DNA of 21,422 nucleotides from a virus. This document shows positions 2,270 to 19,096 of this stretch, one piece after another (positions within the stretch are counted from its first letter, which is position 1; every line of letters begins with the position of its first letter). A program made the translations under genes and the position numbers. The notes under the pieces were generated by a model. That model saw nothing but the letters and a program-made list of their open reading frames with translations. It was not told where the DNA came from and did not search any database. The stretch is taken from positions 1 to 21,422 of IMG/VR virus record IMGVR_UViG_3300027782_000422; one strand, written 5' to 3'.

Positions 2270-2740
2270 TTATTTCTTTTTAGCCTTACCACTAGACTTC
2301 ATTTTACCACCACAGTTCATGCATGGTTTAGCTTTAGCTTTAACCTTTGCACCTTTCTTAGCAATAACACCACGTCCTTTAAGGATGTCAGCTTGTGTAA
2401 TCTTACCATCTTTGTTTAAGTCAGGGAAAGAACCACCAGATTTAGCCTTTTTAATTTTACCACCAGCTTTCTTTTGTGCATATTTCTTTTCAAAATCTCC
2501 TTTGCTCATATAAGTGGTATCACCTTTATTAACTGTAGCATACTTCTTAGTACCTTCACCAGAAGCCATAGGTTTATCTACACGAGGTTTAATCTTACCT
2601 GCAGTTATTGCATTAATGGTTTCTAACATTTCACCTCTGTTATACATTTTAGTAGTGTCTGAATTAGCTCTTTTCTTTAAGAACGCAGCCACTTTAGGAT
2701 CTATTGGTCCACCACCTTGGTATTTTTTAATCTTTGCCAT
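2270..2740 (-). CDS. Lys-rich phage protein with EF-hand/dockerin-like loop
   Basis: A 156-residue, strongly basic protein. Residues 1-10 read MAKIKKYQGG. At 105-118, FPDLNKDGKITQAD fits the calcium loop pattern DxNxDGxIxxxD (ligand positions D107, N109, D111, D118), as in EF-hands and dockerins, followed by ILKGRGV. A CMNC pair (C140, C143) and a Lys-rich tail close the protein. SFPDLNKDGK-type segments are familiar in small structural proteins of tailed phages, but I know no established function. The gene lies in a run of Lys-rich genes on one strand, 28 bases downstream of the 210-residue gene. A particle or DNA-associated role is inferred from composition and context; a single loop may bind calcium weakly or only have a structural role. 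Confidence 0.75.
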   Translation of the reverse strand: MAKIKKYQGGGPIDPKVAAFLKKRANSDTTKMYNRGEMLETINAITAGKIKPRVDKPMASGEGTKKYATVNKGDTTYMSKGDFEKKYAQKKAGGKIKKAKSGGSFPDLNKDGKITQADILKGRGVIAKKGAKVKAKAKPCMNCGGKMKSSGKAKKK

Positions 2741-2768
2741 CTTAGTTATTTTTTTTTTTATTTTAAAT

Positions 2769-3401
2769 TTAACATTTCCATTTTCTTAAAGCTAATGTTT
2801 TCCTTGTTGGTTCACCATTAGGTTTTTTTGCAGGTCCTTTAACTCCTGACATCCTAGCACAGAATGATCTTTTTCTAGCACCACCTTCTGGCTGTGGAGC
2901 TTTAAGATTAGAACCTGGATTAGCTCTGTTGTAAGAGGCTCTACCTTTTGCATTGAGACCACCTGTAGGATTCTTACCTTCTTTGCGAGTCCAAGCTGGT
3001 GTAGATCCACCATTCTTCATTGTAGGATTTTCCTTATGCCACTTCTTTACAGAAGCAACACCCTGTTTAACAGTTTTAGCTTTAGACTTCTTTGTAAGAT
3101 TTATTTTATCCCATTTACCAGCAGAAGGACCACCTGTATGATCTACAACTATATCTCCTTTATCACCTATACCTCTATCAACTTTTTTCTTAAATACTTT
3201 ATGTGTTTGACCACCAGCTTTAACAATCTTACCACCTTTCTTTAATGATGTACCATCTTTTTTAATTAGATGACCATTAGGAACAGGTGTTATAGCACCT
3301 TTTATAGCTGTAATAGTGTCTCCATTTCTGAGAACTCCTTTACCTACATAAGCTTCTGCTTTCTGTGGGTTGTACACCTTTGTTTTAGGTATTCTAGCCA
3401 T
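2769..3401 (-). CDS. Lys/Gly-rich phage protein with conserved C-terminal domain
   Basis: A 210-residue basic protein. Residues 1-130 hold short beta-like Gly/Lys segments (NGDTITAIKGAITPVPNGHLIKKDG region). Residues 135-210 form a distinct conserved phage domain: TPAWTRKEGKNPTGGLN, then KGRASYNRANPG, RKRSFCARMSG, and a C-terminal TLALRKWKC. I recall this domain from many tailed-phage proteins of unknown function (possibly the one catalogued as DUF6321, not certain). Conserved Arg, Lys, Cys and aromatic residues could suit nucleic-acid binding. Its start overlaps the end of the 326-residue LCIB-like gene by 8 bases, so expression is probably coupled. Function is unassigned. Confidence 0.75.
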   Translation of the reverse strand: MARIPKTKVYNPQKAEAYVGKGVLRNGDTITAIKGAITPVPNGHLIKKDGTSLKKGGKIVKAGGQTHKVFKKKVDRGIGDKGDIVVDHTGGPSAGKWDKINLTKKSKAKTVKQGVASVKKWHKENPTMKNGGSTPAWTRKEGKNPTGGLNAKGRASYNRANPGSNLKAPQPEGGARKRSFCARMSGVKGPAKKPNGEPTRKTLALRKWKC

Positions 3402-4374
3402 TTATAAAATTTGAAAAGTTTGTTGTAAGAGATGTCCAAGTTGAACCAGTTCTTACTTCCAATGAATTAAAATTAATAAATGCAGAATAACCATCATCAG
3501 CATTAATGAATGTACCACTAAACAAATATAAATTGTTTACAGATCCTAATGCAGGAATGATTGTATTATGTAAGATGTTATAACTTGCAACTCTTATAAG
3601 TTCTGTAGCTTGAATCATATTCTCTGAATATGTGTGAGAATTGTAATAAGCATAAGAAGCATAAACAATCAATGCAAGTTGATATCTTTGATAATTGTTT
3701 ATAAAAGGAGCATTTGTAGCCACTGGTGCAACACCATTTAATGTAATTGCATCAGCAATAGCTGTAGCAACAGCTCCACATGTATTATCACTTGTAGCAG
3801 AACTCTTACCTCTTCTTAACATTCTACCTACATTATCATTAGCTACAACAAGATCAGCTTGTTGTGTAATTCCTATATGAGGCATGTTAATTAACAATAA
3901 TGGTCCATTTGTATTATCATCTGATGTGGTGTGACTTTGCCAAGCTTGTGCTCCTAATATACCTGTATGAGGATATCCAGCAAGCCCACCACCCATGAAT
4001 GGTCCAAGATAGTTGTTTAATGCTGGGGGATTTTGACCTATATTAAATATATTAGCAAACTCAGAAGCATTAACATCATCTGAACAAACTGTAGAATTCA
4101 AAACAGTATTATATGCATCAGCACCTAAACTATCAAGAAAACTTACTAAGCCATAAGCAACACTATTAGCTAATAAAGCGTTTGGATATGTGGCATTAAC
4201 CACCCCACTATAATTTTTATTCACTTTATTAAAATACTCTACAGGTTGCATCTCTTTCCAGATACCAACAGTAGGAGCACCTCTATATAAATTAAGGCTC
4301 CCTGGAACTATGTCTCCATTTCTGTTAAACCTTGCATAAGGCTTTAAAGGGATTCTTGTGTTTGTTGTTGCCAT
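3394..4374 (-). CDS. Particle-type N-terminal module fused to LCIB-like carbonic-anhydrase domain
   Basis: A 326-residue protein in two parts. Residues 9-41 (LKPYARF, GDIVPGSLNLYR, PTVGIW) match the N-terminus of the poly-Thr protein encoded at 6277-6762, suggesting a shared attachment module. Residues about 60-245 resemble the LCIB/LCIC family of beta-type carbonic anhydrases: TVCSDDVN (C97, D99, D100), MGGGLAGYPHTGILGA (127-142), H148, MPHIGI (H166), GRMLRRGK (R187-R188), then NTCGA (C199). In that family two Cys and one His bind zinc. The usual anhydrase signature of classical beta enzymes is not needed. The C-terminal 80 residues are beta-rich and unassigned. It is embedded in the Lys-rich operon with 1-8 base spacing on both sides. 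The domain call is from remembered motifs; activity is unknown. Confidence 0.65.
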   Translation of the reverse strand: MATTNTRIPLKPYARFNRNGDIVPGSLNLYRGAPTVGIWKEMQPVEYFNKVNKNYSGVVNATYPNALLANSVAYGLVSFLDSLGADAYNTVLNSTVCSDDVNASEFANIFNIGQNPPALNNYLGPFMGGGLAGYPHTGILGAQAWQSHTTSDDNTNGPLLLINMPHIGITQQADLVVANDNVGRMLRRGKSSATSDNTCGAVATAIADAITLNGVAPVATNAPFINNYQRYQLALIVYASYAYYNSHTYSENMIQATELIRVASYNILHNTIIPALGSVNNLYLFSGTFINADDGYSAFINFNSLEVRTGSTWTSLTTNFSNFING

Positions 4375-4375
4375 A

Positions 4376-4747
4376 TTATTTACCTTTTCTAGCTCTGCCC
4401 ATTGCTTTAAATGTCTTAGCTAAAGCTTTACGCTTAGGAGTACATGTAGCTTTGGTCATTGGTGTACAATATCCTTTATGGGCTGGATTAACAGCCTTTT
4501 GAATCCATTTACCATCTTTAGCTTTAGTCTTTAACGCAGGTAGTTTATCAAAACTTTTTTTATCAAAGTTTAGACCTTTAGGTTTAGGAGCATACTTGCC
4601 CTTACCAGCTTGCTTATCTAAAGCATCAGCCATGTCAATATCTCGTTTGTCTTGAACAGACTTCTTAATAAGCTTGCCTGTCATTTCACCACGAACCATT
4701 CCTTTAGGAACTCCAGCACCAGTTTGTGCTTTCTTAATAGTTGCCAT
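4376..4747 (-). CDS. Lys-rich small phage protein with NPAHKGYCTP motif
   Basis: A 123-residue very basic protein. The C-terminal third holds KDGKWIQKAVNPAHKG, YCTPMTKATCTPKRKALA and KTFKAMGRARKGK, a block I recognise from small proteins of many tailed phages and whose function I do not know. The two Cys in CTPMTKATC are eight residues apart. The N-terminal part is low-complexity Lys/Gly/Asp. It lies one base downstream of the 118-residue gene and one base upstream of the LCIB-like gene, so the whole run is one transcript. A structural or packaged DNA-binding role is plausible from charge alone. Confidence 0.75.
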   Translation of the reverse strand: MATIKKAQTGAGVPKGMVRGEMTGKLIKKSVQDKRDIDMADALDKQAGKGKYAPKPKGLNFDKKSFDKLPALKTKAKDGKWIQKAVNPAHKGYCTPMTKATCTPKRKALAKTFKAMGRARKGK

Positions 4748-4748
4748 G

Positions 4749-5105
4749 TTATTTCTTTTTAGAAGATTTTAACTTAGGAGCCATCTCACCACTGCGTTTT
4801 TCTATTAATTCAGACTCACGCTTTAAAGCAGCCTTTCTAAAACCTGCAGGGTTGATTTCTTTATGAGCAGGTGTCTTTTTATCAAGACCATAAGACTTCT
4901 CAGAACGTCCCATTTTACCACCATCTTTCATACTAGTGGCACCAAGTTCTTTATCTTTCTTTAATTTAGGAGTCATTCTAGCATCTGCTAAAGTGTTTTC
5001 TTGAACCTTAGTCCAAGCACCTTGAGGATCAATAGGACCTACACGCTTATCAGAAGCTTTCAATCCTGACATGCTACCCATGCCAGCTTTTTTCATCTTT
5101 GCCAT
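4749..5105 (-). CDS. Lys-rich small phage protein, 118 aa
   Basis: A 118-residue basic protein beginning MAKMKKAGMGSMSG and containing GPIDPQGAWTKVQE (residues 23-36) and EINPAGFRKAALKRE (83-97). No catalytic motif is visible and it is predicted to be largely disordered with helical stretches. Its ATG overlaps the TAA of the 49-residue gene upstream (TAATG at 5107-5103), a coupling arrangement repeated in this operon. It belongs to the set of small Lys-rich proteins and its role is unknown. Confidence 0.7.
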   Translation of the reverse strand: MAKMKKAGMGSMSGLKASDKRVGPIDPQGAWTKVQENTLADARMTPKLKKDKELGATSMKDGGKMGRSEKSYGLDKKTPAHKEINPAGFRKAALKRESELIEKRSGEMAPKLKSSKKK

Positions 5106-5254
5106 TATTTTTTAGTTTTAGCTTTTATTTTCTTTTCTTGCTTTAGCATAGCAGATGTTGGTTTCTTTCCAGATCCTTTAGCAGCACGAATGTTGTCCCA
5201 CAACCCACGTTGTGAAACAGAACCATCCTTACGTTTAATCATTTCTTTTGCCAT
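5105..5254 (-). CDS. Small basic phage protein, 49 aa (SQRGLWDNIRA type)
   Basis: A 49-codon frame with ATG at 5254-5252 and TAA at 5107-5105. It reads KRKDGSVSQRGLWDNIRAAK followed by GSGKKPT and a Lys-rich end. This short block is familiar to me from small proteins of many tailed phages, always unassigned. TAATG overlaps link it to genes on both sides, strong evidence that the frame is translated. The charge and W-D-N-I-R-A core would fit nucleic-acid or capsid contact, but no function is established. Confidence 0.8.
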   Translation of the reverse strand: MAKEMIKRKDGSVSQRGLWDNIRAAKGSGKKPTSAMLKQEKKIKAKTKK

Positions 5255-5529
5255 TATAATGTACCTTTAGGAGCTTCTTCCACTTCTTTAACAATACCTG
5301 CTTCTACACCTCTAGCTAGAACAGATTCAATAGCACCTGTTGCTCTATCTGCTAAGAAGATGGCATGTGCTTCTGGTGTATTTGTAATAGCACGTAAAGC
5401 GTTTAATATAACACCAAACTCTCCTCCAGAGATGGTAAAGTTATGTTCTGTTGACCATGTATATTTCTTACTAGGGTCATAACTTGGGGCTTCATTAGCC
5501 ACTTCTACTTGGTTGATTTCTTCTGACAT
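5254..5529 (-). CDS. Small acidic phage protein, 91 aa
   Basis: A 91-residue acidic protein: KKYTWSTEHNFTISGGEFG (residues 21-39) then VILNALRAITNTPEA (40-54) and a C-terminal helix ending in Glu-rich sequence. It is the first gene of the minus-strand structural operon, starting about 18 bases after a predicted transcription start of the TATCTTTG promoter at 5552-5583. Its acidity contrasts with the following basic proteins, so it might pair with one of them. I recognise the general type from phage genomes but not a function. Confidence 0.75.
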   Translation of the reverse strand: MSEEINQVEVANEAPSYDPSKKYTWSTEHNFTISGGEFGVILNALRAITNTPEAHAIFLADRATGAIESVLARGVEAGIVKEVEEAPKGTL

Positions 5530-5551: not shown

Positions 5552-5583
5552 CAAAGATATGTATAATTTAATTACTATCCAAA
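5552..5583 (-). promoter_or_regulatory. Bacteroidota-type promoter for the 5529-2097 operon
   Basis: On the minus strand TTTGG (CAAA at 5580-5583), a 20-base spacer, and TATCTTTG (5559-5552) match the Bacteroidota -33 TTTG / -7 TAnnTTTG pattern. The start of transcription would fall near 5547, about 18 bases before the ATG at 5529. The -33 element lies inside the end of the preceding gene. Confidence 0.72.
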
Positions 5584-6276: not shown

Positions 6277-6762
6277 TTATCTAGGAGCAGTAGTTGTAGT
6301 TGTAGTAGTAGGTGTTGCAGTGGTTGTAGTAGTTGTTGTTGTAGGTGTTGCTGTAGTAGTGGTAGTAGTAGTTGTATTACTAAAACTTACTTCAGGATCA
6401 AAACTAGAACATGTACAACCAGCTCCTGCTGTAATAACTGTTGTAGTTCCTGCTGCATCTGCTGCAGATATAGAACCAGTTACAGCACATATAGTGGCTA
6501 CTAATAAATTGCTACCAACTAAGTTTACAGTTTGTGTGCTGTTGTCAACACCAGATCTGTAAGTGATAACTGTTGATACAGCACCTTCAGCAGTTGCTAT
6601 AATTTGATAAGAGGTACCACCACTGTTACACTCGTACCCTTGTACTTGCTGCCAGTTACCCACTTTTGGTTTTGTTCGTCTAAGGATTAAGCTCCCTGCA
6701 ACTACTCTGCCACTACCATCGTAGCGGACATAAGCTTTAAGATCACGATTGTTACTTCCCAT
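6277..6762 (-). CDS. Modular phage protein with poly-Thr tail
   Basis: A 161-residue protein. Residues 8-37 (LKAYVRYDGSGRVVAGSLIL, then RRTKPKVGNW) match the N-terminus of the LCIB-like 326-residue protein. The middle, about 40-125, is a beta-rich domain with Cys (C45, C92, C116, C118) of unknown fold. Residues 130-158 are three Thr runs of 8, 8 and 7 separated by ATP, ending APR. Such tracts are common in uncultured phage structural proteins and could be extended linkers or O-glycosylation targets. The mixed ACA/ACT/ACC codons argue for protein-level selection rather than recent slippage. It is likely a decoration or tail protein; the exact role is unknown. Confidence 0.7.
   Translation of the reverse strand: MGSNNRDLKAYVRYDGSGRVVAGSLILRRTKPKVGNWQQVQGYECNSGGTSYQIIATAEGAVSTVITYRSGVDNSTQTVNLVGSNLLVATICAVTGSISAADAAGTTTVITAGAGCTCSSFDPEVSFSNTTTTTTTTATPTTTTTTTTATPTTTTTTTAPR
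6289..6375 (-). repeat. Poly-Thr coding tract (three ATP-separated runs)
   Basis: Low-complexity trinucleotide DNA encoding Thr runs of 8, 8 and 7 separated by Ala-Thr-Pro. Codons ACA, ACT and ACC are mixed. Similar shorter tracts occur in the proteins encoded at 8450-8842 and 20038-20415. Confidence 0.85.
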
Positions 6763-6794: not shown

Positions 6795-7397
6795 TTATTT
6801 TTTATATGAAAATGTATATCTTTCTTTATATACACTTAAATTATTTTGATTACATCTGTTTGTTACTGTACTATAACTAACTGTCAGCTCTTTTGAACAT
6901 TGTAATGCTGATACAAATTCTAATAGTTCTCCAGTTTGTAGGTCTTTTACATATACAGTTTTAGACTTTGGATGAATTGTCATCTTTCTACGAGCATCTG
7001 ACATTTTTTGTCTTGCTTCTATAGTATGTGTAATTCCTCGTTGACCTATTCCTCCATCTGTTTTATTTAATATATTGAAACCCAATTGTTTATATTTTTC
7101 TATATACTCAATTTCTTTTTTACAGGCTTCTTCTTTTGTTAAGTCTCTTTCTATTATAGAAAATATTACATCTTCTTTTTTGTTTTCTATAATATTATCC
7201 ATCCAGCTATATAGTTCAGGATTACTATTTTTAGAATTATACTTTCTATTATTAGCATGTTGTTTCCATCTACCTATTGGATCTCCTGTAAATCCAATAT
7301 ATATTGAGTTATCTTCTGATAATACTGAATAAATTACATATACATAGTAATGGTTATCTGGTAAATCTTTATATACAATGCCATTATACTTTACCAT
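6795..7397 (-). CDS. GIY-YIG homing endonuclease (free-standing)
   Basis: A 200-residue enzyme. The GIY-YIG catalytic domain covers residues about 16-112: YVYVIY (18-23), SIYIGFTG (31-38), RWKQH (R43), a Glu in the KKEIEYIEKY segment (94-102) and LNKTDGG (110-116). A NUMOD3-type repeat (EARQKMSDARR, 127-137) and a NUMOD1-type C-terminal DNA-recognition domain (TVYVKDLQTGELLEF onward, 147-200) follow. The family makes site-specific double-strand cuts that promote its own spread. No intron is visible around it, so it is a stand-alone mobile gene lying between a glycosyltransferase gene and a tail-type gene. Its AT content looks slightly higher than that of its neighbours, as is common for such genes. 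Confidence 0.88.
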   Translation of the reverse strand: MVKYNGIVYKDLPDNHYYVYVIYSVLSEDNSIYIGFTGDPIGRWKQHANNRKYNSKNSNPELYSWMDNIIENKKEDVIFSIIERDLTKEEACKKEIEYIEKYKQLGFNILNKTDGGIGQRGITHTIEARQKMSDARRKMTIHPKSKTVYVKDLQTGELLEFVSALQCSKELTVSYSTVTNRCNQNNLSVYKERYTFSYKK

Positions 7398-8449: not shown

Positions 8450-8842
8450 TTAATAACTATATACTGCAGTGATTCCTGATGAATTTCCAGGAGCCCAAGC
8501 TACCCAAGTTCCAGTCCCTAACTCAGAGGTATTTTTTGCAACGTTTCCAACTCCAGTATTAAAAATATACCAAGCATCTCCACTAAAGAATATAGAACCA
8601 TTTCCACCTGTCTTTGTAAAAGCTTCTGAAGAGGTACTTCTTGTATAAGTTCCATTAGCAGCAGTGTATGAACCATTAGAAATAACAATACTATTAATAA
8701 ATGGAGCTATTGTAGTTGTTGTTGTTGTGGTAGCAGGAATATTCCTACCCATCACTCCTGTAAGCCTTTCTAATTGATTAGATATCTGCCAAAGCAAATT
8801 ACTCTTTGTACTCCAGCCTATTTGTCTTGATGGTATTGCCAT
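8450..8842 (-). CDS. Tail/adhesin-type protein with shared N-terminal module
   Basis: A 130-residue protein. Residues 1-29 (MAIPSRQIGW, LLWQISNQLERLTG) are nearly the same as the start of the 169-residue protein just upstream, which points to a common attachment module. A Thr run at 38-44 links it to a C-terminal domain (about 48-130) with SNGSYTAANGTYTRS, FTKTGGNGSI and AWYIFNTGVG, a pattern found in small phage tail-fibre domains. It resembles a receptor-binding or decoration protein built as anchor, linker and head. Spacing of 4 bases to the upstream gene suggests an operon. Confidence 0.7.
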   Translation of the reverse strand: MAIPSRQIGWSTKSNLLWQISNQLERLTGVMGRNIPATTTTTTTIAPFINSIVISNGSYTAANGTYTRSTSSEAFTKTGGNGSIFFSGDAWYIFNTGVGNVAKNTSELGTGTWVAWAPGNSSGITAVYSY

Positions 8843-8846
8843 GTTA

Positions 8847-9356
8847 TTAAGCTATTTGGTAAATTCCTGATAAATCAAAATGGCTAGTTACAGTTGTGCC
8901 ACCCACTGGTGTATTGAATTTCCAGTTTAAATCTGTTGTACTTCCTGAATAGTATAATTTATGTATTGTTGGACTAACTACTACATCTGTAACACCAGCA
9001 ATGTGGTATAAAGAAGACCCTGTTGTTTGATGTAATGTACCACCAGCTTGTCTCATTGTTTCAACAGAAGCAAATGGTAATGTAATTTGGTATTGTAAGG
9101 TGCCAAAGTTAGTACAACCAGCAAAGTCTACATATACTCTAAAATAACAAAGATTTCCTTGTAAAAGAGTATATGATCCTGTAGCAGTTGTACCAGCTAA
9201 TGTTCCAGAACCATCTGTAAATAATGGATCAAATGATGCAGTTATTATATTTTGTGCATTATAAGTCACCTTAGTAAGATATTCCAATTGCTTGGATATC
9301 TGCCACAAGAGGTTTTCCTCTGTGCCCCAGCCAATCTGTCTAGAAGGTATTGCCAT
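8847..9356 (-). CDS. Tail/adhesin-type protein with shared N-terminal module
   Basis: A 169-residue protein whose residues 1-28 (MAIPSRQIGWGTEENLLWQI, then SKQLEYLT) match the neighbouring 130-residue protein. The rest, about 38-169, is a beta-sandwich-like domain typical of phage fibre tips: TLLQGNLCYFRVYVDF, YQITLPFAS and a C-terminal FDLSGIYQIA. There is no poly-Thr linker here. It starts about 15 bases after a predicted transcription start of a TATCTTTG promoter and is the first gene of that operon. A receptor-binding or tail decoration role is inferred. Confidence 0.7.
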   Translation of the reverse strand: MAIPSRQIGWGTEENLLWQISKQLEYLTKVTYNAQNIITASFDPLFTDGSGTLAGTTATGSYTLLQGNLCYFRVYVDFAGCTNFGTLQYQITLPFASVETMRQAGGTLHQTTGSSLYHIAGVTDVVVSPTIHKLYYSGSTTDLNWKFNTPVGGTTVTSHFDLSGIYQIA

Positions 9357-10978: not shown

Positions 10979-11635
10979 TTATTTTATATATTTAAAAATG
11001 TATCCTTTACATTGATTTCTAATTCCTCTAGCTACCATAGAAGCTTTACCTGAATATTTAATGGGGTCTAAACCTACTGATCTACAGGCTTCCGACATAC
11101 TATGGTACACTCCAAAGCTTTTGCCATCTATGTTAAATACTTCTGTGGATATAGCTTGTCCAGAATCTACAGAACTCAAAGACTGTTTGTGTTTCTTTTC
11201 TTCAGAGGACACTCTACCTTTTATATAAATCCCACGTTTAATCTTTGTTTCTTCTGACTGTATAGTACCATATCTATGATTATTAGGTCCTAGTTTCTGT
11301 TGTCTAAGTTTTTCTTTTGTTTCTTTAGATCTAATACAGTTCCAAATACCATCTCCACCGTCAGTTAGATTACATAAAGTCCCTGTACCTAAATCTTTTC
11401 TACCATACAAACTTATAAATTCTTGTTCTTTAATGGACGCTTCTTCTTTAGTAAGACCTTCTACTAATATTTCTATATCAATATTAGTTTTATTATATAT
11501 ATTAATCCAGATGGAGTTTCTTTTAGAAGCATTTGATTCATACGCTCTAGCATAATCCTTTTTATTACCTATTCCAATATAGAATGGTTCACTTTTGTCA
11601 AGTCTAATATGTCTATAAACGTACCAGTTATTCAT
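10979..11635 (-). CDS. GIY-YIG homing endonuclease within the lysis cassette
   Basis: A 218-residue enzyme. The GIY-YIG domain lies at about 4-95: WYVYRHI (4-10), FYIGIG (18-23), Arg in YARAY (R30), a Glu in KEQEFISLY (69-77) and LCNLTDGGDG (87-96). NUMOD3-like repeats (SKETKEKLRQQKLG, 103-116; SEETKIKRG, 127-135; SSEEKKHKQS, 143-152) and a C-terminal NUMOD1-type DNA-recognition segment (VFNIDGKSFGVYHSMSEACR, 166-185) follow. Its ATG overlaps the TAA of the endolysin gene (TAATG at 11635). It is a mobile gene inserted between the endolysin and a membrane protein, with no intron visible. It is of the same family as the enzyme at 6795 but clearly diverged. Confidence 0.87.
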   Translation of the reverse strand: MNNWYVYRHIRLDKSEPFYIGIGNKKDYARAYESNASKRNSIWINIYNKTNIDIEILVEGLTKEEASIKEQEFISLYGRKDLGTGTLCNLTDGGDGIWNCIRSKETKEKLRQQKLGPNNHRYGTIQSEETKIKRGIYIKGRVSSEEKKHKQSLSSVDSGQAISTEVFNIDGKSFGVYHSMSEACRSVGLDPIKYSGKASMVARGIRNQCKGYIFKYIK

Positions 11636-13708: not shown

Positions 13709-14077
13709 TTAGTAGGGCTGATAGGATTTCTCCTCTATAAAGTCAGATCCATACTTTATATTAATTTCTTTTTTAATATGTGCTCGCTTGTCATTCAATC
13801 TATAAACACTTCTGGCTAGCTGGATGAAGTGTTCATCAAACAACCTGTCTCTCTCACAGTTTCTTAACCTGTCTTCTACATCCCACAGGTTTTTGTTCAC
13901 CTTGAGAAGCTCATCAGTCATAGGATCATGTAATATCTCAGGATTTATCACTGTGTTTAGGTAGTTTCTCTCCTTGAAAACATTAACTAATTTGTCTTTA
14001 TCCTTTATGTTCAAAGCTTTGATGGACAATATGGTCCATTTATCTACCACTTCTCCTATAGAAACTTCTATTTGCAT
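13709..14077 (-). CDS. DUF6165-like protein
   Basis: A 122-residue protein starting MQIEVSIGEVVDKWTILSIK (ATG at 14077-14075; the frame is open upstream but the promoter at 14102-14130 places the start here). The motif SIGEVVDKWTIL near the N-terminus (6-17), LWDVEDRLRNCE (69-80), FIQLARSVYRLNDKRAHIKK (86-105) and the end EEKSYQPY match the DUF6165 family as I recall it, small proteins found beside glycosyltransferase and sugar genes of unknown function. It diverges from the large glycan enzyme gene with overlapping promoters, so the two may be co-controlled. The helical, charged sequence gives no catalytic clue. Confidence 0.75.
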   Translation of the reverse strand: MQIEVSIGEVVDKWTILSIKALNIKDKDKLVNVFKERNYLNTVINPEILHDPMTDELLKVNKNLWDVEDRLRNCERDRLFDEHFIQLARSVYRLNDKRAHIKKEINIKYGSDFIEEKSYQPY

Positions 14078-14087
14078 ACTAAAAATG

Positions 14088-14118
14088 TTTGATATTCCAC
14101 GCAAATATACTAATTTTG
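14088..14118 (+). promoter_or_regulatory. Bacteroidota-type promoter for the 1124-residue enzyme gene
   Basis: Plus strand TTTG (14088-14091), a 19-base spacer and TAATTTTG (14111-14118). Transcription would start near 14123, 13 bases before the ATG at 14136. It overlaps the opposite-facing promoter of the DUF6165 gene, so the two may compete. Confidence 0.65.
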
Positions 14119-14130
14119 TTGTAAATACAA
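14102..14130 (-). promoter_or_regulatory. Bacteroidota-type promoter for the DUF6165 gene
   Basis: Minus strand ATTG (CAA at 14128-14130), 18-base spacer and TATATTTG (14109-14102). Transcription would start near 14097, about 20 bases before the ATG at 14077. The spacer is one base shorter than usual. Confidence 0.55.
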
Positions 14131-14135
14131 TTAAT

Positions 14136-17100
14136 ATGCCTAACAGTTATACATATTTTAAGGAAGAAGTTAGAGAATGGTTTAGAGAGAATGTTCCTGC
14201 TAACACAAAGGTGTTAGACGTAGGTCCTGGACAGGGCACCTATGGTAAGCTTCTGTATGAACTTGGGTACAACATAGATGCTGTTGAGGTGTGGGACCCT
14301 TACATCAGTGAGTATAAGCTGTGGGAGTATTATGGTAATGTACATATTGCTGATATACGTGAGTTTGATTGGTCTGAGTATGATTTTATCATCCTAGGTG
14401 ATGTGTTAGAACATTTGACAGCTGAAGAAGGACAGAAACTTATTAATGATATTGCCATGGCTAGGAAGCAATGTTTGGTTGCTATTCCCTATATGATGGA
14501 GCAAGATGGTGAGCAGTATGGTAATACATATGAAACCCACCTACAAGCAGATCTTACAAAGGAAATGATGGCAGAACGTTACCCTACACTAGATTTGCTC
14601 TATGCAAATGAACATTATGGGTATTATGTAAGTAAGAAGGTGGTAGACAAAGCATTTGTACTCTATGCCACAGAAGCCTATTATGATATTGTGACAGCCT
14701 GTGTGCATTCTCTTACAACATTTAGTCAGCATCCAGTGTTTGTTTACATGCTCAACTCTGACAAAAAGGTACCCAGAGCTACAACCATTAGATGGAACTG
14801 TGATATAGATCCAATAGAATACAATACCAAAGACCAGTTTTATATCAACAGGACAGATGATAGGATATATAACATCCTCATACAGCGTCCACTGATTGTT
14901 ATAGACTGTCTTAAATATACTGACACTGTAATGTATGTAGACAGCGATAGTGTTGCTACACCTTTTGTAGACAGAGTGTTTAACTATCCTGTCTCTGAAT
15001 ATCCTCTATTTACATCTAGTATCTATGACCAGATGTTCCTAAATGGAAAAGGAGACCTTGAAAAACCTATTTGTGAACTTCTAGCTATAAAGAGAGGCAG
15101 ATATATACAAACAGGATACTTCCTAGCTAGTGTAAGTTGTCTGAAGTTCTTAAAGGAGTGGGCTAATATGTGTACCCATCCTACAATACTAAAAGACTTC
15201 AAGAAATACGCACCCTTCCATGAAGAAACTGTAGCCAATGCTGTACGCTGGAAGTATGAAATAGATCAGTCATTACCACTCATCTATACCAATGCTAGCT
15301 TAGATGTACTAGAGAATATAGATAAATATGAGTTTGGTAAAGAACATTGGGAATGGTTTAAACTACCTGATAGTAAGCATGAGTTGTTCTTCTACCATGG
15401 AGAGAAAAGACCAACTGTAATGTACAAGATGATTAATAAATTGAAAGGCAATAAGAGAGTGTTGTTCCTAGCTCCTCACTTATCTACAGGTGGTATGCCT
15501 GCATTCCTATTAAAGAGAATACAGGAGATAAAAGACCATGTAGAGATATATGTAGTTGAGTATCAATGCCATAGCTTAGACTTTGTTGTACAGCGTAATG
15601 CAATCAAAGAGATTGTAGGATCTAACTTCACTACACTGTATGAGAACAAGATGGAACTGTTTGATATTATTGATAGCTGGAAGCCAGACATCATTCATCT
15701 AGATGAGCCTGCTGAGAGATATGACAGAGAGATGATTACTAAGTTGTATGATACAAACAGATCATACAAGATTGTAGAGACATTCCATGATGTAGCATTT
15801 AAGCCTGAAGAAAAGATCTTTCAGTCAGAAGCATATGCATTCTGTACACCATATCACCTCAACAAATTTACCAATCTACAAGGTTATACAAAGGTGATTG
15901 AGTTTCCTATAGAGGATAAAAGGCCAGATGCTGTAGGTAAAATAATAGCTAAGAATATACTAGAGTTTGCTCCATTCAAGACCAGTGTTGTAAACATAGG
16001 ACTATGGACCCCAGGCAAGAATCAAGCAGAGGGAATAGAGATAGCTAAGAAGTACCCTCATATGGATTTCCATTTTGTAGGTAATCAAGCTGGTAACTTC
16101 AAAGACTACTGGGAACCATTAATGAAAGACTTACCACCTAATGTAAAGATATGGGGAGAAAGAAATGATACATGGAAGTTTATGAGAGCTGCAGATATAT
16201 TCATGTTTAACAGCACATGGGAATGTAATCCTCTTGTACTTAGAGAAGCAATCAGCTATGGTCTTCCTATCATAGCTAGAAACCTTCCTCAATATGAAGA
16301 CATGTTTACTAAGTATTTACAACCAATAGATACAGACTTAAACACTATACAAACTAACTATGAAGTACCTACAGAGAATACATTCAGACAAGACAACATA
16401 GACTTCTACAACCACGTAGACTCTATTTCTCTACAGCCACAAGATGTAACCATCACACAACACTATGTTGTTAATCCATTTCTTGAGATAACAGGTGTGA
16501 GTGATAGTAATTTCAAGGTGGAATTCTATGATGAGCAGGGAGCGTGTCACTACAGTAGTGTGATCAAAACCAACCAGTGGGTAAAGTTAGATAGAAGCTA
16601 TTACACTAAATGGAGAAGTAAGATATGGCAGGATGATGTTCTTATACATGACTACACATTAGACTATACAGATAAGACTGTATTCATCTACTTTGATAGT
16701 GAGAGTCTTGGAGATACAATTGCATGGATACCATACTGTTTAGAGTTTAAGAAGAAGCACAACTGTCATGTTGTTGTTAGCACATATAAAAACTTCTTGT
16801 TTGAGAAAGCATATCCAGAGCTTGAGTTTGTTGCACCTGGAACACCTGTCAATGCTTATGGAGAATACATAATAGGTTGGAGATATAATAAAGATCAAGA
16901 GCCTGAGTTGTGTAACACCATACCTCTACAGAAAGCAGCTGCTAATATACTTGGACTACCATATAGAGAAATAAGACCTAGGTTTGCTTATACACCTGTG
17001 GAGTTTGAAGACAAGAGTAAGTATGTAACTATTGCTACAAACAGTACAACAGGATGTAAGTTTTGGACTAGAGAAGAGTGGCAGGAGTTAATTAACTATC

Positions 17101-17510
17101 TAGTGGATAAAGGATACAAAGTATATAACGTATCTAAAGAAAGAAATCCATTTGACAGATGTGTACAGATAGAAGATACATCAATGGATAACACCATCAA
17201 TATGATTTGGAACAGTAAGTTCTTTATAGGACTATCTAGTGGATTAAGCTGGTTAGCTTGGATGATGGGTAAGCGAGTGGTGATGATATCTAACTTCACC
17301 AAAGCAGACCATGAGTTTCAATCTAACTGTATTAGAATTACAGATGAGACTGTATGCCATGGCTGTTGGAACAATAAAAACTTCAAGTTTGATAGAGGAG
17401 ACTGGAACTGGTGCCCAATCTGGAAGGGTTATGACAGACAGTTTGAATGCCATAAAACCATCACAGCAGGTAAAGTTATAGCTTCCCTTCAGCCTTTAAT
17501 TGCTCTCTAA
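14136..17510 (+). CDS. Four-domain methyltransferase-glycosyltransferase-glycosyltransferase-heptosyltransferase fusion
   Basis: A 1124-residue protein; the ATG at 14136 fits the promoter, and the open frame further upstream runs antisense into the neighbouring gene. Domain order: (1) class I methyltransferase, 1-168, with KVLDVGPGQGTYGKLL at 25-40 and ILGDVLEH at 86-93; (2) GT8-like GT-A domain, about 172-430, with DSDS at 269-272 and FFYHGEKRP at 418-426; (3) GT-B domain of GT4 type, about 438-735, with HLSTGGMPAFL (448-458) and an E-x7-E pair (E696, E704); (4) TibC-type autotransporter heptosyltransferase, about 780-1124, with NQWVK, DSESLGDTIAWIPY (854-867), SSGLSWLAWMMGK (1034-1046) and Cys 1074, 1077, 1093 and 1105, which match the iron-binding Cys cluster of TibC as I recall it (first three equally spaced). 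It is soluble. The target is unknown; a glycan on a protein is likely from domain four. Confidence 0.85.
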   Translation: MPNSYTYFKEEVREWFRENVPANTKVLDVGPGQGTYGKLLYELGYNIDAVEVWDPYISEYKLWEYYGNVHIADIREFDWSEYDFIILGDVLEHLTAEEGQKLINDIAMARKQCLVAIPYMMEQDGEQYGNTYETHLQADLTKEMMAERYPTLDLLYANEHYGYYVSKKVVDKAFVLYATEAYYDIVTACVHSLTTFSQHPVFVYMLNSDKKVPRATTIRWNCDIDPIEYNTKDQFYINRTDDRIYNILIQRPLIVIDCLKYTDTVMYVDSDSVATPFVDRVFNYPVSEYPLFTSSIYDQMFLNGKGDLEKPICELLAIKRGRYIQTGYFLASVSCLKFLKEWANMCTHPTILKDFKKYAPFHEETVANAVRWKYEIDQSLPLIYTNASLDVLENIDKYEFGKEHWEWFKLPDSKHELFFYHGEKRPTVMYKMINKLKGNKRVLFLAPHLSTGGMPAFLLKRIQEIKDHVEIYVVEYQCHSLDFVVQRNAIKEIVGSNFTTLYENKMELFDIIDSWKPDIIHLDEPAERYDREMITKLYDTNRSYKIVETFHDVAFKPEEKIFQSEAYAFCTPYHLNKFTNLQGYTKVIEFPIEDKRPDAVGKIIAKNILEFAPFKTSVVNIGLWTPGKNQAEGIEIAKKYPHMDFHFVGNQAGNFKDYWEPLMKDLPPNVKIWGERNDTWKFMRAADIFMFNSTWECNPLVLREAISYGLPIIARNLPQYEDMFTKYLQPIDTDLNTIQTNYEVPTENTFRQDNIDFYNHVDSISLQPQDVTITQHYVVNPFLEITGVSDSNFKVEFYDEQGACHYSSVIKTNQWVKLDRSYYTKWRSKIWQDDVLIHDYTLDYTDKTVFIYFDSESLGDTIAWIPYCLEFKKKHNCHVVVSTYKNFLFEKAYPELEFVAPGTPVNAYGEYIIGWRYNKDQEPELCNTIPLQKAAANILGLPYREIRPRFAYTPVEFEDKSKYVTIATNSTTGCKFWTREEWQELINYLVDKGYKVYNVSKERNPFDRCVQIEDTSMDNTINMIWNSKFFIGLSSGLSWLAWMMGKRVVMISNFTKADHEFQSNCIRITDETVCHGCWNNKNFKFDRGDWNWCPIWKGYDRQFECHKTITAGKVIASLQPLIAL

Positions 17511-17862
17511 TCTTTGTAGCAGAGATGTCACTTATTTCTTGAGGAGGAACATGTTCAACAACATCATATCCTACACCTCTACCAAAGTTGATAGACTCAA
17601 TGTCAGGAATGATTATTAGTCTCACTTTGTTTTCTTCAATGAGATCTATTAGTTCTTCTGATAGATTCATCATTATTTGATATGCTGACCATGGGTTCTT
17701 TTCATCTTGCTTAACGTCTCGTACACACAGTAAGACCTTCTTTCCCTGGTTTAACTGTTGATCAATTAACCATCTGTGACCTTCGTGCCATGGTTGCCAT
17801 CTTCCAATGAACATAGCGTAGCCATCTGTCTTTCTATTTCCTTCAGCTAAAATATTCTGCAT
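17476..17862 (-). CDS. HxGH nucleotidyltransferase (NMNAT/cytidylyltransferase-like)
   Basis: A 128-residue Rossmann-type nucleotidyltransferase. GRWQPWHEGHRWLI (20-33) gives the HxGH motif (H26, H29) and ISATKIREQL (113-122) gives the ISxTxxR motif; both are hallmarks of enzymes that join a nucleotide to a phosphate-like group. The phage form resembles NadM-like adenylyltransferases, and NadM itself would make NAD. Its position right after an APS kinase and sulfotransferase raises the possibility of a substrate linked to sulfate activation, but nothing in the sequence fixes this. Its start overlaps the kinase gene by 16 bases, and its end overlaps the convergent large enzyme gene by 35 bases. 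Confidence 0.75.
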   Translation of the reverse strand: MQNILAEGNRKTDGYAMFIGRWQPWHEGHRWLIDQQLNQGKKVLLCVRDVKQDEKNPWSAYQIMMNLSEELIDLIEENKVRLIIIPDIESINFGRGVGYDVVEHVPPQEISDISATKIREQLKAEGKL

Positions 17863-18281
17863 ATACGTTTGATTTGATCCACACTCTTCTCTATAGAAGT
17901 GTTAGATGTATTAATAATTGAATCTATATTATCTCTATTTGGAACTTCAAAGTCTTCCACTTTAAATTGATCTCTACCTCTATCTTCTTCATATATAAGA
18001 TAGATCCACTTAACATCTCTAGTTAGACTGCTTAGATACTGTCTAGCTTCTTCATAAGGATACACTAGTGATAGAACAACATTGTGTCCTTTGTAGCTTA
18101 AATACTTTGCTATGTCACTAGCTCTGTTTAAGTTTTTAATCCTACCTTCTCTGCTGTAGTCTTTGTTATTAAACATGTCTCTTAAATCATCACCATCAAT
18201 GTGGTGGAATCCCTCTGCCATAAACTTTTTAGCTAGGGTTGTCTTGCCTGATGCAGGCTGTCCAAAAATAACTATTATCAT
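17847..18281 (-). CDS. cysC: APS kinase-like P-loop kinase
   Basis: A 144-residue kinase. GQPASGKTTLA (7-17) is the P-loop; IDGDDLRDMF (28-37) matches the DGDNxR substrate motif of adenylylsulfate kinase; SREGRIKNLNRASDIAKYL (43-61) with R47 and R53 and SLVYPYEEAR (70-79) follow the same family. It would phosphorylate APS to PAPS, the sulfate donor for sulfotransferases. It is short (usual length about 180-200), lacking much of the C-terminal lid region. It overlaps the sulfotransferase by 4 bases (ATGA), and the pairing supports the PAPS-making role. Phages of several groups carry cysC-like genes. Another nucleoside or nucleotide kinase cannot be excluded. Confidence 0.72.
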   Translation of the reverse strand: MIIVIFGQPASGKTTLAKKFMAEGFHHIDGDDLRDMFNNKDYSREGRIKNLNRASDIAKYLSYKGHNVVLSLVYPYEEARQYLSSLTRDVKWIYLIYEEDRGRDQFKVEDFEVPNRDNIDSIINTSNTSIEKSVDQIKRICRIF

Positions 18282-19096
18282 TTTGTATATCTAAATTGTT
18301 GAAAAAACCATTGATAATTATCAAAGATCCAATTACTAACATCCTTACCTAATAAAGCTTTTGCTTTAGAAGGTACAGGTTCTAATCTAGTACGAATAGT
18401 ATGGTCACCAAAGCTTCCATACACTTCATCATCTTCTTTAGTAACTTGTTCTATATTGTCCCAATCATGTTGGTAATATGGAATGCCTAAGTACTGATAT
18501 ATCCTTGTCATCTCTGTATCAGGATATAAACACAAGTCTTCAAATCTAACGAACAACATGTTCTTATCTGTACCCATTCTAAATATCTCTTGTAATCTTT
18601 CTATAGCTAGTCCAACAGGTTGACTCTGTGCCCAGATGTCTATACGTTTTGGAACTGTTGTTCCTTGCATCTGTGCCCAATTGAGAATAGCATTAGCCTT
18701 ATCAGGATTCTTTCTATAGTTGTTTTCCATAGAAGCAAAGATATCTCTAAGGTCCCTGACCATACATATAATCTTTGGCTCTGGGTGGATGAAGTTTAGG
18801 AAGTCATAGTGTATGCCCCATCCACGAGATTTGTCTACAACGTATTTCTTATTAGTAATAGCATTGTAATAAGCCTCCATCCCAAATCTACAAAATGCTT
18901 GGAAAGCTGTTTTCATTATTTCAGGGTCCTGTGCTTTAAACTCTGGACTGTCTGTGTAATTACCTCTAGCAGCAAACACCAATTCAAGAACACCACTAGT
19001 TGGTGTAGCATATACATCTGGATTTTGTGCTAATATGTTTTGTAACAACGTTGAACCTGCTCTTGGTAAAGAGCTTTGATAGAATATATTTTCCAT
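18278..19096 (-). CDS. PAPS-dependent sulfotransferase
   Basis: A 272-residue sulfotransferase. The 5'-phosphosulfate loop is SSLPRAGSTLLQ (8-19), the 3'-phosphate region IICMVRDLRDIFASM (109-123) with R114 and S122, and a later VRFEDL (about 193) is typical of the family. It would transfer sulfate from PAPS to a hydroxyl group of a glycan or protein. It is soluble, without a signal, so it would act in the cytoplasm. It sits between a GT9-like glycosyltransferase and an APS kinase with 1- and 4-base junctions, so the three probably make one sulfated product. The acceptor is unknown. Confidence 0.88.
   Translation of the reverse strand: MENIFYQSSLPRAGSTLLQNILAQNPDVYATPTSGVLELVFAARGNYTDSPEFKAQDPEIMKTAFQAFCRFGMEAYYNAITNKKYVVDKSRGWGIHYDFLNFIHPEPKIICMVRDLRDIFASMENNYRKNPDKANAILNWAQMQGTTVPKRIDIWAQSQPVGLAIERLQEIFRMGTDKNMLFVRFEDLCLYPDTEMTRIYQYLGIPYYQHDWDNIEQVTKEDDEVYGSFGDHTIRTRLEPVPSKAKALLGKDVSNWIFDNYQWFFQQFRYTK

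Follow-up and report, generated by a model that had tools for sequence, protein, structure and literature searches.

Does a phage encode a carbonic anhydrase of the LCIB type, a family discussed mostly in algae, and if so, does the domain belong to the virus particle? The question arose from a first-pass annotation of the window, the whole 21,422-nucleotide stretch analyzed here, which is a 21-kb fragment of a virus (an IMG/VR record). The open reading frame claimed at 3394-4374 exists, on the minus strand; the annotation had named no strand, and the plus strand contains many stops across the same interval. The motifs quoted for its product were all recovered at the residue numbers given for them, i.e. 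C97-S-D-D, GGGLAGYPHTGILGA (128-142), H148, PHIGI with H166, RRGK (187-190), and TCGA with C199. The locus has the following features.

3394..4374, minus strand: tagged LCIB-domain protein of 326 amino acids (open reading frame, Pfam PF18599, and 94% identical relatives in other IMG/VR contigs)
3451..4149, minus strand: LCIB_C_CA domain, residues 76-308 (Pfam, Foldseek)
2270..5529, minus strand: co-directional run of six genes, in order 5254-5529, 4749-5105, 4376-4747, 3394-4374 (LCIB, number 4), 2769-3401, and 2270-2740 (open reading frame coordinates and spacing)
5552..5583, minus strand: Bacteroidota-type promoter match TTTG-N-TAnnTTTG, 22 nucleotides ahead of the start of gene 5254-5529, the first of the run

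The intergenic gaps in the run measured 148, 1, 1, -8, and 28 nucleotides, and the six genes are probably transcribed together. Elsewhere in the window, three adjacent minus-strand genes at 17476-19096 resembled a sulfation cassette (cytidylyltransferase-like, APS kinase, and sulfotransferase). A 1178-residue fusion of a methyltransferase-like part with several glycosyltransferase domains was encoded at 13974-17510 on the plus strand, opposite to the structural genes. A GIY-YIG homing-type endonuclease gene was seen at 6795-7397 on the minus strand, and 10979-11635 looked similar by eye.

Assignment to the LCIB family was supported by profile and fold searches alike. Pfam PF18599 (LCIB_C_CA) matched residues 76-308 with E=7e-18 and 65.2 bits against a curated cut-off of 25, covering profile positions 11-222 of 223. 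With phmmer, the window protein found PtLCIB4, the active LCIB-family carbonic anhydrase of Phaeodactylum tricornutum (PDB 5b5y), at E=1e-5. A profile of the viral relatives reached 6kfs and PtLCIB4 at E values of about 1e-14 to 2e-14, with LCIC and LCIB matched more weakly, and hhalign of the viral profile against three algal LCIB fragments gave E=6e-21. An AlphaFold2 model from a 53-row alignment had a mean pLDDT of 78.5, with residues 96-98 and 103-137 below 50; an earlier one, built from 19 sequences, scored lower at pLDDT 72. When the 53-row model was compared with the PDB by Foldseek, the first seven matches were all crystal structures of the LCIB family, headed by PtLCIB4 (E=4e-11, probability 1.00, TM 0.77 on the target) and then LCIC/LCIB, with beta-carbonic anhydrases next. 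The similarity, judged from the sequence comparisons, is far beyond chance, and homology of the window protein to LCIB is nearly certain. PHROG and NCBIfam held no match to it, and the sole match in BFVD was one protein over 44 columns. The first-pass annotation had known of no described phage example, and none came to light in literature searches for a phage LCIB or, in INPHARED, among 50,697 deposited phage records.

Relatives were nevertheless numerous in metagenomic virus sequences, at least 102 IMG/VR stretches encoding one. The gene neighborhood of the window recurred in a genome of 113.6 kb (G001) with crAss-like terminase, portal, capsid, and DNA polymerase. Its terminase and portal matched those of crAss-like, Cellulophaga, and Flavobacterium phages, Leptolyngbya phage Lbo-JY46 being nearest; this phage was also the nearest cultured relative by terminase and capsid. 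The crAss_MUZ muzzle protein was found in G001 (E=8e-25) and in 8 of 17 other carriers searched. Terminase, portal, and muzzle, which define Crassvirales, are thus present in the syntenic G001 and its relatives, and the 21-kb window is a stretch without these genes. Gp23 of T4-like phages was detected in 7 of the 24 carriers searched. The carriers fall into two unrelated phage groups, crAss-like (the window type) and T4-like. The LCIB gene of G001 lies downstream of capsid and tail genes on the same strand, and in another carrier (L025) it is placed between the capsid gene (Gp23) and that of the head-tail adaptor Ad2.

The kinship with Lbo-JY46 led us to consider a cyanobacterial host. This was rejected, as psbA and psbD were absent from 24 carriers and both the window and G001 had Bacteroidota-type signals for translation and promoters. 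The 32 genes of the window showed no Shine-Dalgarno signal and were A-rich at -11/-12 and -3, and TTTG-N-TAnnTTTG occurred 7 times in the window against 0.8 expected, a number reached in 0 of 100 shuffles. Together these signals make up what we take to be the Bacteroidota pattern and point to a host in that phylum for the window-type phages, i.e. the window and G001, from which they were read; the larger T4-like carriers G008, G010, and G011 stand apart from that reading. A scan with the sigma-70 consensus was uninformative.

Cellular genomes were searched as well. A first scan with viral motifs found no locus, and a scan with algal motifs revealed two bacterial loci, which led to a family search in Bacteroidota and Calditrichota. 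LCIB was present in 35 of 396 Bacteroidota genomes and in 1 of 40 genomes from the phylum Calditrichota. Neighboring genes encoded PEP carboxylase and CutA1 (L109), a SulP/STAS permease (L110), SbtA with PII (L127), SbtA (L130), or bestrophin (L114, L116), a context that fits a role in bicarbonate supply. In a tree of 75 sequences, a branch with 100/100 support separated all viral LCIBs from those of Bacteroidota, Calditrichota, and algae. Because the window is a 21-kb fragment and Bacteroidota cells do carry LCIB genes, we weighed whether stray DNA of the host had been binned wrongly into a viral contig, or whether the motif had arisen by convergence. Both are contradicted by a near-identical gene in the syntenic 114-kb crAss-like genome with its terminase, portal, capsid, and muzzle genes, by the separate viral branch, and by the agreement of fold and sequence, and we regard them as highly improbable.

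The register of the active site was fixed by aligning the mutant sequences S47R and H88A of PtLCIB4, which placed C97 on Cys46, S98 on Ser47, D99 on Asp48, and H148 on His88.

4078..4086, minus strand: C97-S98-D99, predicted zinc ligand Cys and active-site Asp, S98 corresponding to PtLCIB4 Ser47 (alignment with PtLCIB4 and the S47R mutant; C and D invariant)
3931..3933, minus strand: H148, corresponding to PtLCIB4 His88 (aligned with the H88A mutant; kept in 69/69 viral, 22/22 bacterial, and 3/3 algal sequences)
3877..3879, minus strand: H166 in PHIGI, predicted zinc ligand His (68/68 viral, 22/22 bacterial, 3/3 algal)
3814..3816, minus strand: R187, invariant, candidate active-site Arg (68/68 viral, 22/22 bacterial, 3/3 algal)
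3778..3780, minus strand: C199 in TCGA, predicted second zinc ligand Cys (68/68 viral, 22/22 bacterial, 3/3 algal)

By homology, C97, H166, and C199 are the predicted zinc ligands. The Cys-His-Cys site proposed earlier is thereby retained in outline, with H148 removed from the candidate ligands: it matches His88 of PtLCIB4, a functionally important active-site residue distinct from those that hold zinc. Among 70 distinct viral sequences, whose divergence from the window protein reaches about 70%, C97, D99, H148, H166, R187, and C199 were kept wherever covered (68-69 rows), as they were in all 22 bacterial and all 3 algal relatives. Some of the peptide patterns used for scanning contained CSDD or PHIGI, so the conservation of residues in these two motifs is partly ascertained; H148, R187, and C199 lie outside the patterns. 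A tandem second copy picked by no pattern (L075:10811-11665) keeps CADD, SH, PHLGI, RRG, and TCGA, and dN/dS of the LCIB core relative to the window was 0.05-0.32. These comparisons are strong evidence that the viral family has retained its active-site residues. Of the two options left by the first-pass annotation, a carbonic anhydrase or a catalytically dead relative, the second has become the less likely, since the viral family retains every member of the catalytic set without variation. Catalysis itself is suggested rather than proven by the residues, as CrLCIB and CrLCIC are reported to be inactive despite an intact zinc motif, which is ascribed to disorder of an important His and Arg (His162/161, Arg194/193; review, PMC5876011). 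R187 would be the counterpart of Arg194/193.

The earlier statement that the N terminus is common to the LCIB protein and a neighboring poly-Thr protein proved real for residues 10-46, as a similarity (46% identity, E=3e-9) rather than a match.

4237..4347, minus strand: N-terminal anchor tag, residues 10-46 (similarity to the poly-Thr protein; found in more than 20 non-LCIB proteins; in several pairs, synonymous divergence far above that of the remaining gene)
6277..6762, minus strand: paralogous tag protein with a poly-Thr tail and an anchor like that of the LCIB protein

The first ~45 residues of the window LCIB protein reappear in over 20 further proteins of the carrier phages, where they precede other payloads, namely poly-Thr tails, BspA-type leucine-rich repeats (LRR_5), or Fib_succ_major. 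L072:10984-12030 and L064:6861-8084, for instance, join the LCIB-type tag to Fib_succ_major (with the tag duplicated) or to a BspA-type LRR. Between the window and L010, dS was 1.12 for the tag and 0.15 for the LCIB part, with the same trend in L006 and L004, indicating that tag and LCIB part recombine. The window contains a second common tag, MAIPSRQIGWxTxxNLLWQISxQLExLT, in two minus-strand genes with differing C-terminal parts (8450-8842 and 8847-9356); it is also present in G001 at 90451-90888 and had no match in deposited phages.

Across the viral family, the LCIB domain was seldom bare; it followed at least five kinds of N-terminal module, some of those in other phages resembling the starts of tail fibers, or was embedded in a protein of 776 amino acids. 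The latter arrangement was observed in L080 and L081, downstream of a baseplate-like gene, and the L080 protein had no match in deposited phages. Searches of the N-terminal modules and of the L080 protein against PHROGs and phages gave no useful match, and the modules matched no known tail or head family. In L017, L019, L020, L068, and L072, the segment after the last catalytic Cys was swapped for another common one (TAAxWVMTN...), a mosaic within the LCIB family. Pairs of adjacent co-directional LCIB genes are frequent in T4-like carriers and were seen in seven (L028, L075, L076, L087, L088, L090, and L093). The first gene of a pair has an N-terminal module, which the second mostly lacks; among these tandem-pair carriers, Gp23 was found on the contigs of L075, L088, and L090.

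The payloads on the tag, the varied fusions, and the position of the L025 gene between Gp23 and Ad2 argue for a virion-mounted domain. The suggestion that the domain rides on the virion thus gained support from gene context and fusions, and we infer a particle location on these grounds. The same architecture would also suit an LCIB fold kept as a binding module. It would then be an adhesin or a structural piece of the virion whose zinc site stabilizes the fold or binds a ligand, and no relevant CO2 hydration would take place, as proposed for Chlamydomonas LCIB/LCIC. Payload swaps on common tags and fusion to fiber-like N termini are typical of receptor-binding proteins, tag and LCIB part recombine, the sister payloads LRR and Fib_succ_major are non-enzymes, and inactivity has precedent in the family (PMC5876011). 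Against a mere binder stands the full catalytic set, invariant in very divergent sequences and including H148 and R187, which are not needed for holding zinc. Adhesins, moreover, tend to change quickly at the surface with which they act, whereas here the core is the slowest part. We consider a purely binding role unlikely.

If the protein acted instead as an auxiliary metabolic enzyme in the infected cell, with no part in the virion, it would late in infection feed bicarbonate to PEP carboxylase and to the synthesis of carbamoyl phosphate and fatty acids, and the tag would serve assembly or localization only. The linkage of cellular relatives to PEP carboxylase and bicarbonate transporters and the copies without an N-terminal module agree with such a role, which would require no signal peptide. 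The gene is found among late structural genes, however, with fusions to diverse structural-looking modules, and embedding in the 776-residue protein of L080 would be odd for a free cytosolic enzyme. This role appears slightly less probable than that of a binder.

Of these readings, we consider a virion-mounted zinc carbonic anhydrase domain the most likely, at slightly under an even chance. In its favor are the LCIB homology, the conserved catalytic set, the virion context, and the bicarbonate-related neighbors of bacterial LCIB genes. Counting against it are the inactivity reported for CrLCIB and CrLCIC, the weak modeling at 96-98 and 103-137, where viral LCIBs carry an insertion, the NM that most of them have in place of YG before PHIGI, the N-terminal modules that match no known tail or head family, and some second copies that lack such a module. 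The crAss-like phage would make a two-part virion protein in which a tag of ~40 residues mounts interchangeable payloads on the particle, here an LCIB-type (theta/beta) carbonic anhydrase domain. This domain would bind one zinc via C97, H166, and C199; the rest of its active site would consist of D99, H148, and R187. It would probably form an LCIB-type dimer or hetero-dimer. The interconversion of CO2 and bicarbonate could take place at the surface of the particle or of the host, or once the domain has entered the cell. The phage might gain from a quicker exchange between CO2 and bicarbonate, from a shift of pH close to the host surface, or from delivery into the cell. More hesitantly, we propose that the particles of two unrelated phage lineages may bear a functioning carbonic anhydrase, which in the T4-like phages might be a hetero-oligomer of two LCIB paralogues, and that it may serve to alter CO2, bicarbonate, or pH at host contact or entry.

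The enzymes known on phage particles are mostly depolymerases and cell-wall hydrolases. If the proposal is true, carbonic anhydrase would join them as a new class, and phage entry would be tied to the chemistry of inorganic carbon in water. Were the domain a binder only, crAss-like and T4-like phages would still have taken a metabolic zinc enzyme into their virion proteins repeatedly. The find is not categorically new: it adds a viral branch and an architecture to a known enzyme family. A zinc-enzyme domain family of algal and bacterial CO2 handling, with catalytic residues intact, is fused to tail- or particle-type segments, suggesting that some virus particles may carry carbonic anhydrase. 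To the LCIB family, studied in algal carbon concentration, a large viral branch is added, as is one in Bacteroidota with links to bicarbonate transporters, and both supply new sequences for the question of which LCIBs are active.

Among known systems, PtLCIB4 has the same fold as the window protein and was its top structural match. Its C46-S47-D48, His88, PHVGV-type His, RRGR Arg, and C-terminal CG Cys all have counterparts in the window protein, at about 20% identity. The viral protein differs by its N-terminal tag, by an insertion after CSDD (NIGQ.P...LGPF), and by A/G in place of the Arg six residues past the first Cys; most viral LCIBs have NM in place of YG before PHIGI. Chlamydomonas LCIB and LCIC (5k5w, 5b5x) share family and fold with the window protein at a much weaker sequence match. 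They are chloroplast proteins of the CCM, inactive in the cited work (PMC5876011), and the adjacent LCIB gene pairs of T4-like phages recall the LCIB/LCIC pair. Viral carriage of carbonic anhydrases has precedents, reported as metabolic genes and not described as virion fusions: a carboxysomal enzyme in a sponge virome (PMC7863781), which is of another class than LCIB, and those of giant viruses (PMC13037468), for which LCIB was not named. The cellular LCIB_C_CA proteins of Bacteroidota and Calditrichota have the motifs C-S-D-[DE]-[VI]-N, F-x-x-GG, H-[IV], PHIG, and CG in common with the viral ones, and those of Bacteroidota come from the same phylum as the likely host of the window-type phages. 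The insertion in the weakly modeled region (96-98, 103-137) is viral and absent from cellular LCIBs. The Bacteroidota and Calditrichota proteins are of ~230 amino acids, stand alone, are encoded beside bicarbonate-related genes, and lie outside the viral branch at 100/100.
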